NCBI GenBank assembly: GCA_019313905.1 | Contig: JAFDAI010000029.1 | Location: 1-36,859, forward strand | Direction: 5' to 3' | Length of the DNA stretch: 36,859 nucleotides | DNA from: Deltaproteobacteria bacterium | GTDB lineage: Bacteria > Desulfobacterota > Syntrophia > Syntrophales > UBA2210 | In this document: piece after piece, positions 33,810 through 36,859 of the stretch | How the letters are laid out: the number at the start of each line of letters is the position of its first letter | How positions within the stretch are numbered: the first letter of the stretch is position 1 | Program-made: the position numbers and the translations under genes | The notes under the pieces: model-generated | Seen by the model: the letters and a program-made list of their open reading frames with translations, nothing else | Told to the model about the DNA's origin: nothing | Database searches by the model: none

Positions 33810-34203
33810 AATATATTATCCAAGCCATTGATTATCAGGCCGACATGCCCTGACAAGTTGATGTTATGCAACTCTCCCGTAAATTTATCCTTTTGCTATC
33901 ATTGACAAAACGGCGGCAGTATAACAGAGGATAGAACCGGATGTCAACATCCGAGACCTGTAAATTACCTGAAGAAATAAGAAGGTTTAGATAGTTACAC
34001 TATCATTCGATTCATACAGAATACGAAGGTAAGACAATGTTTAATTAAAAACGTTATCACAAAAAGCAGGATCTAATTTCGCGCTTTTTTTCGTGGTTTC
34101 GTGATTGTCTTTAATTCTCTTGCCATTTTTGCAAGAACTTTACAACCAGGGGACTATCGTATATATAAAGGCCTCACCAGAAATTACTGCAGGAAATCTA
34201 TCC
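33810..34203. promoter_or_regulatory. Control region before nrdD with two palindromes
   Basis: The gap between the small membrane protein and nrdD holds no gene. Two palindromes stand out: CGGATGT-CA-ACATCCG at 33938-33953 and GATAG-TTACA-CTATC at 33990-34004. Either could be an operator for nrdD or for the divergent - strand gene. Neither fits the paired 16-bp NrdR boxes well. No convincing promoter pair was found. Confidence 0.4.
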
Positions 34204-36306
34204 ATGGCAAAAAATGAAACAACAGATCTGGCGCTCTTTGTCAGGACGTCTGGAGAAGATATAACCGGTTGGGACAGGCGAAAGATTGTTGACGCCCTGA
34301 TTCGTGAGGCTGAGGTGGACCTTGATACGGCTGAGGAGATAAGCAGGGATGTGGAAGGTCAGATAGCATTGTCGGGAATCGATATCCTTACCGCTTCGCT
34401 GATAAGGGAACTGGTGGACGCGAAACTTATCGAAAGAGGCATGAAAAAGGCGACAAAGCTGCATGCCCGCCTGGGTTTCCCTCTCTACGACGTGGGACAG
34501 CTCATACTGTACCGCAATAAAGAAAACGCCAACATTCCTCACAGTCCGGAAGGCACAAACCTTACCCTGGCTCAGGGGGTAAAAAGGGAGTATGCGATTC
34601 TCAATGTCTTTTCCGAGGATATTGGATATGCCCACATGACGGGGGATGTACATATACATAACCTCGGATATGTAGACAGGCCATACTGCTCCTGTCAGTC
34701 TCTCGAATATATAAAGAAATTCGGGCTGAATCTCCCCAATTCACTCGCCGTCGCCCAGCCGGCCAGACACGCGGACGTGCTACTGTCGCACATGGTGAGG
34801 TTTGCCGCTGCCCTTCAGGGAAACTTTGCCGGGGCCGTAGGATGGGATGCCGTCAACCTCTTTTTTGCCCCCTATCTGGAGAAGTTGACCAACCGGGAGG
34901 TAATGCAGCTTGCGCAGAGGCTGATCTATGAATTCGCCCAACAGGCTGTCGGCAGGGGAGGACAGACAATATTTACCGATATACACCTCTACTGGGAGGT
35001 GCCCCGGCACTTCGAAAATGTTCCCGCCATAGGACCGGGCGGAAAATATACCGGCAAAACGTACAGTGAATATGAGGCGGACGCCCAGAGGTTTGTCCAA
35101 GCGATATTTGAGACCTTCCGGAAGGGGGACGCCGCGGGACGTCCCTTCGTTTTTCCCAGACCGCTTGTACATATAACGGATAAGCTTTTTCAGACATCCG
35201 GCCATAGGGAGTTTATTCGCTCTGCCTGTAATGTGGCAGCAGAGAAAGGGAATCCTCACTTTATCCTTGACCGGAATGATGCCCTTAATCTGTCTGAATG
35301 CTGCAATCTGAACATGACCGGCAGAGAAGAGAAGAAAGATGCCGGCGAACCGTGGAAGATGCGGTACTTTGCCATTCAGAATATATCAATAAATCTGCCC
35401 AGGCTGGGATATAAAGCAGGAGGAGATGATAGAAAACTCTTCTCCATGATTTCAGATGTCATGGAGCTTGCCGCAAAAGCTCATCTGCAAAAGAGAGTTT
35501 TTATTGAGAGGCTACTGTCGCATGGCGATGAGGGGCCCTTGTCGCTCCTTACAATGGATTATGATCATACGCCATACCTGAGGATGAACCGGTGCACATA
35601 TCTTATGGGAATTATTGGACTTAATGAACTGGTCTTGGTGCATAAAGGCTGTCAGCTTCACGAATCAGAGGATGCACGTAAGTTTGGCCGTGATATTGTC
35701 GCGTACATGAAAGGCGTTGCGGACAACCTGACCGGAAAGCATGGAGTAAGGTTTATCCTGGAGCAGTCCCCCGCGGAGAGCATGCCTTACAGGCTGGCCC
35801 GGCTGGACCTGAAACATTTTTCTCCGACAGCGGGACATTTTGTGAGAGGTGACATATCGAGGGGAGAGATATATTATACCAACTCAACGCTCCTTGCGGT
35901 ATCGTCCCCCACGGATCCATTCGAAACAGCGGCGCTTGAAGGTGATATTCACCCTTTCATAGAGGGAAATGCCGCAACCTGTATATCCCTGGGCGATACG
36001 AAACCGGATAAAGACGCCCTGGCCGGGTTTATCATAAAGGTTTTCAAAGAGACTCGGAACCAGCACGTAGTATTTTCGCCAGAATTTACCACCTGTCTGG
36101 ATTGTAACAGGACATCCCGGGGTATCAAAGACTCTTGCCCTCATTGCGGTTCGAAGAACGTAGAGGGAATTACCAGGGTCGCGGGATATTTCTCCAGGGT
36201 ATCGAGTTGGAACAAGGGAAAACTGGCGGAACTGAGAGACAGGAAAAAACAGGGGCGTGCTTTTGGCGATTCTAAGGAAGATACACCTGTAAAAAATCCA
36301 AATTAA
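34204..36306 (+). CDS. nrdD: Anaerobic ribonucleoside-triphosphate reductase (class III)
   Basis: NrdD makes deoxyribonucleotides from ribonucleoside triphosphates without oxygen, using a glycyl radical. From ATG 34204 it has 700 residues. An N-terminal ATP-cone for allosteric control covers about residues 10-90. The barrel includes CSCQSLEYIKKFGLNLPNS and NLSECCNLNMTG. The C-terminus has the zinc cysteines CLDC and CPHC and the radical site RVAGYFSRVSSWNKGK with the glycine at about 661. AGGA lies nine bases before ATG 34204; an in-frame TTG at 34105 would add 33 unconserved residues. The activase gene nrdG is not next to it. NrdR (20345) may regulate it. Confidence 0.94.
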   Translation: MAKNETTDLALFVRTSGEDITGWDRRKIVDALIREAEVDLDTAEEISRDVEGQIALSGIDILTASLIRELVDAKLIERGMKKATKLHARLGFPLYDVGQLILYRNKENANIPHSPEGTNLTLAQGVKREYAILNVFSEDIGYAHMTGDVHIHNLGYVDRPYCSCQSLEYIKKFGLNLPNSLAVAQPARHADVLLSHMVRFAAALQGNFAGAVGWDAVNLFFAPYLEKLTNREVMQLAQRLIYEFAQQAVGRGGQTIFTDIHLYWEVPRHFENVPAIGPGGKYTGKTYSEYEADAQRFVQAIFETFRKGDAAGRPFVFPRPLVHITDKLFQTSGHREFIRSACNVAAEKGNPHFILDRNDALNLSECCNLNMTGREEKKDAGEPWKMRYFAIQNISINLPRLGYKAGGDDRKLFSMISDVMELAAKAHLQKRVFIERLLSHGDEGPLSLLTMDYDHTPYLRMNRCTYLMGIIGLNELVLVHKGCQLHESEDARKFGRDIVAYMKGVADNLTGKHGVRFILEQSPAESMPYRLARLDLKHFSPTAGHFVRGDISRGEIYYTNSTLLAVSSPTDPFETAALEGDIHPFIEGNAATCISLGDTKPDKDALAGFIIKVFKETRNQHVVFSPEFTTCLDCNRTSRGIKDSCPHCGSKNVEGITRVAGYFSRVSSWNKGKLAELRDRKKQGRAFGDSKEDTPVKNPN

Positions 36307-36430
36307 ATGGCAAAGTAAAAAGCTCCAAATGCAAGGCGCGCAAATCATGCGGAACGAGGCGTACATACGGTACGCCGCAGTGACGAAGGATGCAGCGGAA
36401 CGCAGGAGTTGGACTTTTTACAAAGCCATT
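36306..36430. mobile_element. Inverted-repeat element after nrdD
   Basis: The left end AATGGCAAAGTAAAAAG and the right end read in reverse, AATGGCTTTGTAAAAAG, differ at three positions. Inside, GGCGTA and TACGCC form a hairpin stem. The 125-bp unit encodes nothing and begins at the last base of the nrdD stop. It is a different family from the repeat at 13907. It may also work as a 3' structure for nrdD. Confidence 0.65.
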
Positions 36431-36469
36431 AAGAAAGTGTGAAAAAGTGGGCACAAACAATAACTTTTC

Positions 36470-36498
36470 TTGACAGTGTAGCCCGCCTGATATATAAG
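36470..36498 (+). promoter_or_regulatory. Strong sigma-70-type promoter of the ilv leader
   Basis: TTGACA (36470-36475) and TATAAG (36493-36498) are exactly 17 bp apart. The start is expected near 36505, just before the leader peptide. This is the best promoter in the window. Confidence 0.8.
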
Positions 36499-36516
36499 CT
36501 TGCCCAAGTGAGAGAT

Positions 36517-36615
36517 ATGGAAAAGATCAAAATGGCAAATATCCAGATAGCAATTATAATTATAGGGGTACTTATAATTACCTCCTTTGCATATGGGGGA
36601 TGGGCAATGGTTTGA
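36517..36615 (+). CDS. Ile-rich leader peptide of the ilv attenuator
   Basis: The frame codes for 32 residues, nine of them Ile, plus two Val and one Leu. The core (residues 11-21) reads IAIIIIGVLII. It lies between a strong promoter and a Rho-independent terminator, upstream of the acetolactate synthase gene. When charged tRNA for branched-chain amino acids is short, ribosomes should stall in the Ile run and prevent the terminator from forming. This is the classical ilv attenuation logic. The ribosome site (GAGAG) is weak. Confidence 0.82.
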   Translation: MEKIKMANIQIAIIIIGVLIITSFAYGGWAMV

Positions 36616-36641
36616 TTTTTTTACATACATTCAGCATCAAG

Positions 36642-36674
36642 ACCGTTGCCGGCCCCGGCAGCGGTTTTTTTTTT
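36642..36674 (+). terminator. Attenuator terminator before the acetolactate synthase gene
   Basis: A 9-bp GC-rich stem (36643-36651 with 36656-36664, one G-T pair) with loop GCCC is followed by ten T (36665-36674). It begins 27 bases after the leader-peptide stop and ends 31 bases before the structural gene start, so it must be bypassed for expression. Confidence 0.92.
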
Positions 36675-36705
36675 GGAGAATCAAAAAGATACAGGAGGTA
36701 TTAGA

Positions 36706-36859
36706 GTGAAATTTACAGGGTCGCGTATTCTTATGGAAACATTGGTAGAGGAAGGGGTGGATACCATCTTCGGCTATCCCGGCGGAGCAGTGCTCGATAT
36801 ATATGACGAGATATACAAGACACGCATCAAACATATCCTGGTTCGTCATGAACAGGGTG
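36706..36859 (+). CDS. ilvB: Acetolactate synthase large subunit, 5' part
   Basis: Only the first 51 codons are in the window. They match the N-terminus of the ThDP-dependent acetolactate synthase catalytic subunit: [32 protein letters not shown] and the HEQG motif, whose Glu activates the cofactor. The enzyme starts valine, leucine and isoleucine synthesis. GTG 36706 is the start, with AGGAGG at 36693-36698. The gene may equally be called ilvI. Its expression is controlled by the attenuator upstream. Confidence 0.9.

Follow-up and report, generated by a model that had tools for sequence, protein, structure and literature searches.

The leaders of the Escherichia coli ilvGMEDA and ilvBN operons are classical examples of ribosome-mediated attenuation. 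The leader described here shares with them, as they are generally portrayed, a peptide rich in the product amino acid, mutually exclusive 2:3 and 3:4 hairpins and a terminator before the first gene, and appears to differ from that general portrait in that Ile dominates. Vitreschak et al. (2004) reportedly described attenuators of proteobacterial amino acid operons by comparative genomics, and these belong to the same mechanistic class as our leader. ORFs upstream of ilvB are known in Actinobacteria (PMC1262725, in the part available to us) and in further lineages (PMC10272879, likewise in part). The available part of PMC10272879 describes the ilvB-II (Corynebacterium), ilvB-OMG and ilvB motifs, short ORFs rich in branched-chain residues before ilvB for which attenuation was proposed; our leader resembles all three in its short, branched-chain-rich ORF upstream of ilvB, whereas the ilvB-OMG and ilvB peptides are by description also threonine-rich, unlike ours. 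Ile/Val attenuators were absent from Rfam at the time of PMC3766115, according to a portion of that paper, and no ilvB-related Rfam family matched in our window or in the loci searched. The mechanism is thus an ordinary one, since ribosome-mediated attenuation is already known and ORFs upstream of ilvB are known in other lineages.

The window (the whole 36,859-nucleotide stretch analysed, from a bacterium of the Syntrophales, Desulfobacterota) carries all parts of such a leader near its right end, on the plus strand. The promoter (36470-36498) consists of TTGACA (36470-36475), a 17-base spacer and TATAAG (36493-36498) and agrees with the consensus at 11 of 12 positions; a simple promoter scan missed TATAAG because its rule allows only T at the end of the second hexamer. 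Transcription would start near 36505. In 27 of the 29 ilvB loci considered (the window among them, L034 excluded), a promoter-like pair matching at 9 or more of 12 positions stands 5' of the leader, versus 14% of shuffles. The putative Shine-Dalgarno sequence AGTGAGAG (36507-36514), identical in two genomes of the same genus, precedes the ATG (36517) of a 32-codon ORF (36517-36615, ending with TGA) that is also seen in relatives and encodes MEKIKMANIQIAIIIIGVLIITSFAYGGWAMV, with nine Ile, two Val and one Leu. At the Ile frequency of 7.15% found in six genes of the same genome, the probability of at least nine Ile in 31 codons is 2.3e-4 for one ORF, before any correction for the number of ORFs open to inspection. 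The control codons, Ile13-16, Gly17, Val18, Leu19 and Ile20-21 (36553-36579), end with the pair Ile20-21 (36574-36579) immediately 5' of a small hairpin predicted by folding (36581-36599, CCTCC at 36581-36585 with GGGGG at 36595-36599), a candidate pause or protector (1:2) hairpin. Region 2 (36603-36613), the 5' half of the antiterminator, overlaps the 3' end of the leader ORF, stop codon included, and pairs with region 3 (36640-36650), which folding and alignment assign to both antiterminator and terminator. The intrinsic terminator (36639-36674), recovered by scan, folding and alignment, sits between the leader ORF and the first structural gene and has a 13-pair stem (36639-36668) with seven GC pairs. 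The preliminary description of this DNA had proposed a promoter, a 32-residue leader with nine Ile and a terminator with ten T, laid out within 205 bases, and a gene start 31 bases further on; the leader reads as claimed, the ten T form the tract at 36665-36674, and every position and both distances proved exact to the base.

The structural gene is ilvB, encoding the acetolactate synthase large subunit (36693-36859, with AGGAGG at 36693-36698 and GTG at 36706-36708), and it extends past the end of the window. Its ortholog in a genome of the same genus scores 825.9 bits against TIGR00118 (cut-off 538.35). The rest of ilvB lies on another contig of the same genome (C76), followed by ilvN, ilvC and ilvD, and in a genome of the same genus the order ilvB-ilvN-ilvC-ilvD is found on one contig, the end of which falls inside ilvD. 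The leader therefore precedes genes that make the amino acid it is expected to sense.

Folding supports two competing structures. In the stretch that a ribosome stalled on the Ile codons would leave free (36585-36655; -21.3 kcal/mol, z -2.4), region 2 and region 3 form a long hairpin (36603-36613 with 36640-36650), and the terminator stretch alone folds about equally well (-21.5 kcal/mol, z = -4.6). The whole leader folds with z = -4.3, and its minimum-energy fold contains the terminator. Antiterminator and terminator are mutually exclusive because region 3 is common to both. The preliminary description had looked to an alternative antiterminator, and this stable, exclusive pairing, found by folding and by the covariation described below, supplies it. 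These features are consistent with a classical ribosome-mediated attenuator that would sense charged tRNA-Ile and control the ilvB-ilvN-ilvC-ilvD operon, a reading to which we assign a probability of about 0.92. When Ile is plentiful, a ribosome translating the leader would reach the stop codon and mask region 2, region 3 would join region 4 as the terminator, and transcription would end before ilvB. When Ile is scarce, the ribosome would stall in the Ile run, above all at Ile20-21, and leave region 2 free; region 2 would then pair with region 3, the terminator would be blocked, and RNA polymerase would enter the operon. We infer that the leader is translated, that the ribosome stalls and that transcript length changes in this way, as a predicted response of the ilvB leader to isoleucine.

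Conservation in relatives is a stronger test than either the Ile count of a single ORF or a folding z. The start of ilvB was searched in 41 genomes (the window's own and 40 relatives), of which 39 matched, and the best 30 places were taken, one in the window and one in each of 29 relatives. The same layout, defined by the region 2 and terminator pattern, is present in 25 of the best 30 ilvB upstream regions (24 of the 29 relatives), and the leader frame, whose conservation the preliminary description had made decisive, is thus retained. The five regions lacking the pattern are four with Val-rich leaders and other terminators, and L034, in whose ilvB upstream region no leader was seen. The 25 leaders form alignment A1 (24 distinct rows), in which invariance is inflated because the selection pattern had already fixed letters of region 2 and the terminator. 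The conserved parts are the control codons, the segment leading to region 2, and the terminator. This distribution argues against regulation by something other than a translating ribosome, such as a riboswitch, a T-box or a protein-bound leader, with the ORF incidental. A long leader with alternative hairpins would suit such a regulator, and ppGpp riboswitches control some ilvB genes elsewhere (PMC10272879, in part). However, across 15 loci no family of Rfam 15, leader, T-box and riboswitch families included, scored at its gathering level except a tRNA, and the four matches of the window itself (E up to 5) all fell under the gathering scores; we regard this explanation as very unlikely.

Covariation in A1 supports the attenuator's two pairings. 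In the terminator, 97.9% of cells are paired, 24 cells and four pairs are changed on both sides, and the covariation score was matched by none of 500 shuffles. In the antiterminator, 94.9% of cells are paired and the covariation score was matched by one of 500 shuffles; one pair is changed on both sides, a count also attained by 226 of 500 shuffles. Sliding the antiterminator by +3 columns gave a covariation of 0.223 versus 0.218 and three such pairs versus one, but only 73.6% of cells were then paired. Columns 97 and 142 pair as U-A, C-G or U-G, unbroken in all 24 distinct rows. Column 142 shows covariation with column 97 (region 2) as well as with column 160 (the other arm of the terminator), as expected if one element serves two alternative hairpins. 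When the region 2:3 duplex was compared with dinucleotide shuffles in individual leaders, p was 0.02 or less in 16 of 29 ilvB leaders and in 15 of 25 cimA leaders (described below). The 13 ilvB leaders with a terminator that missed this level include L012 from the window's genus (p 0.086), and the Val-rich leaders L023, L025, L031 and L035, which have other, tandem terminators, gave p of 0.04-0.11.

Support for the smaller hairpins is more limited. Some hairpin is predicted at the 1:2 position in all 25 ilvB leaders folded, and it is better than shuffles (p < 0.05) in 4 of these 25 and in 6 of 20 cimA leaders (six of the 26 cimA leaders were not anchored); the cimA protector hairpin as drawn is 69.7% paired, a value equally high in 277 of 500 shuffles. 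The window's own fold contains the small hairpin alongside the antiterminator, so an untranslated leader may not terminate. A constitutive partial terminator with no switch, the remnant in this genome of a former attenuator, would be in keeping with the weak protector hairpin of the window's genus and with the altered region 2 of L012. The promoter, leader, region 2 and terminator of the window are nevertheless all intact, and L010 and L011, from the same genus, are identical to it in every letter of the control run, the small hairpin and region 2, which leaves a relic the least probable of the explanations that we weighed against a working attenuator. Two further structures were examined. An AU-rich hairpin formed among the control codons themselves (36557-36580), with the Ile codons ATT/ATA pairing with one another, exceeds synonymous re-draws in strength at a rank below 0.1 in 10 of 21 ilvB leaders. 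All 10 belong to the window's family, and one of them (L015) has a different hairpin; when codons were permuted instead, the count was 7 of 21. The hairpin is confined to that family, with 0 of 22 cimA leaders, and is not a general feature. A long 5' stem between the leader start and the U-rich spacer, seen in the minimum-energy fold, is not claimed because it reached p < 0.05 in 3 of 25 leaders.

At E <= 0.01, a covariance model built on the 25 ilvB leaders (R1) found matches in 130 of the 155 genomes searched in the order, often with a second place in the genome. Nineteen second-place loci were read, and all but one precede cimA; the exception, L158 (G029:C58:54833-54982), is a second acetolactate synthase in one relative, equipped with a Val-rich leader (MKAISILRIVVVVVTPSTGAG) and a terminator of its own. 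The window's own genome has a second Ile-rich attenuator before cimA (G000:C81:7809-7960), with the leader MPARNLITIIISEILIEGRICAT. The product of this cimA scores 734.2 bits against TIGR00977, citramalate synthase (cut-off 450), and leuA stands 3' of the gene. Citramalate synthase provides an entry to isoleucine without threonine deaminase, for which a search of this genome with one model gave no match at E <= 1e-30. cimA is present in 26 of 30 genomes searched, and alignment A2 contains all 26 upstream regions, picked by protein and not by RNA pattern. In its terminator, 96.8% of cells are paired and five pairs show changes on both sides. In its antiterminator, 92.0% of cells are paired and four pairs show such changes, a number that 114 of 500 shuffles also attain; the antiterminator's covariation score was matched by one of 500 shuffles. 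One cimA leader (L163, G101:C1:1808709-1808860) lies in a single-contig genome of 3,179,300 bases.

The preliminary description had also expected isoleucine to be the main signal. The sequences of the window and of most leaders would fit this: the last branched-chain codon pair is II in 21 of 29 ilvB leaders (L034 and L224 left out and L209 and L214 missing, here as in the control-codon hairpin counts), and the cimA leader is Ile-rich. The fit does not extend to all lineages. Among the best 30 genomes, six have a Val-rich ilvB leader (L021, L023, L024, L025, L031 and L035) and two a mixed one (L026 and L038), so the sensed amino acid appears to differ between lineages. In all six Val-rich genomes, cimA is preceded by a leader containing 6-10 Ile and no more than two Val, and G024, G027 and G031, which belong to this group, have a Leu-rich leuA leader as well. 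Rare-codon sensing was considered and rejected: ATA is common, accounting for 65 of 186 Ile codons in six genes of the window's genome.

leuA gave 24 matches, of which 11 were taken (the rest were three partial matches and ten that stand behind cimA within the window's family), and all 11 upstream regions combine a terminator with a leader containing 6-12 Leu; L227 stands 3' of cimA yet has its own leader. When the duplex was tested with the terminator arm alone, none of the 11 leuA leaders was significant, and the leuA mechanism is for this reason the least supported of the set; a longer arm may be needed for this test. Pooled leader peptides contain 22.7% Ile for ilvB, 29.0% Ile and 2.7% Val for cimA, and 28.7% Leu and 5.4% Ile for leuA, with Phe steady at 2-3% across the sets; these percentages are approximate because automatic picking of the leaders began at an internal ATG in the window, chose false ORFs at L034 and L224 and gave no leader at L209 and L214. 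That the residue follows the pathway (Ile before ilvB and cimA, Leu before leuA) bears on whether the ORF might encode a small single-pass membrane protein, with the terminator merely ending the transcript of a small gene. The Lys-containing start and long hydrophobic, Ile-rich stretch would fit such a protein. Against it stand the pathway-dependent residue, the shortness of some of the peptides, which have only 20-22 residues and little in common beyond the run, and the complementarity between the terminator arm and the last part of the ORF; we give this possibility very little credence and retain the attenuator.

Of 80 loci from named genomes, 34 matched R1 on the plus strand (E below 0.01), with ilvD following the match in 28 cases, ilvB in five and leuA in one. 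At the 28 ilvD loci, which include those of Desulfosarcina alkanivorans, D. widdelii and Desulfocicer vacuolatum, ilvB follows, with ilvC in at least 19 and cimA in at least 24. At 30 of the 34 loci the leader peptide includes each of Ile, Val and Leu at least twice; the other four are three leaders of the window's type and one locus with no readable leader. In a scan of 395 genomes of the phylum under strict filters (R1 E <= 0.001), at least 34 matched, 19 of them outside the order. Twenty-six of 27 new loci were examined, and 13 precede ilvD, 12 cimA and one leuA; left out were L173 (the ilvB leader of G030, the same as L037) and the four weakest matches outside the order. Leader codons thus appear to follow operon content, with Ile before cimA, Leu before leuA, mostly Ile before ilvB and a mixture before the ilvD clusters of Desulfobacterales. 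Because of this dependence, the clade forms a natural series in which to test how the amino acid read by a peptide sensor changes.

Among the papers listed in searches with lineage or citramalate terms, judged by their titles and abstract openings, none describes these leaders, and none of those listed with citramalate terms describes a cimA attenuator. The pathway-wide set of leaders, which is more interesting than a single ilvB leader, may be undescribed as a whole; it extends leader-peptide attenuation to the branched-chain pathway of largely uncultured Desulfobacterota, citramalate synthase included. Tentatively, and at somewhat less than even odds, Desulfobacterota may have had an ancestral mixed Ile/Val/Leu attenuator before a large branched-chain cluster (in the order ilvD, ilvB, ilvN, often ilvC, then cimA and sometimes leuA) that was split in the window's order, the leader being copied and its codons specialised to give private sensors for ilvB, cimA and leuA. 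R1, although built on ilvB leaders, still finds cimA and ilvD leaders, and the leaders of ilvB, cimA and leuA are rich in Val, Ile and Leu, respectively, in G024 and G027, and in Val with Leu, Ile and Leu in G031.

Upstream of the ilvB attenuator, the ORF at 34105-36306 encodes an anaerobic ribonucleoside-triphosphate reductase (nrdD; TIGR02487, 376.4 bits, cut-off 326.35). Between nrdD and the ilvB promoter lies a 128-base element (36305-36432) with imperfect terminal inverted repeats, the 17-base arms of which (36306-36322 and 36414-36430) are 82% complementary. The element has 25 or 28 whole and partial matches in the same genome, depending on the search, is present in 11 of 21 genomes searched and is missing at the corresponding site of two genomes of the same genus. 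It is apparently a MITE-like repeat inserted just 5' of the attenuator.
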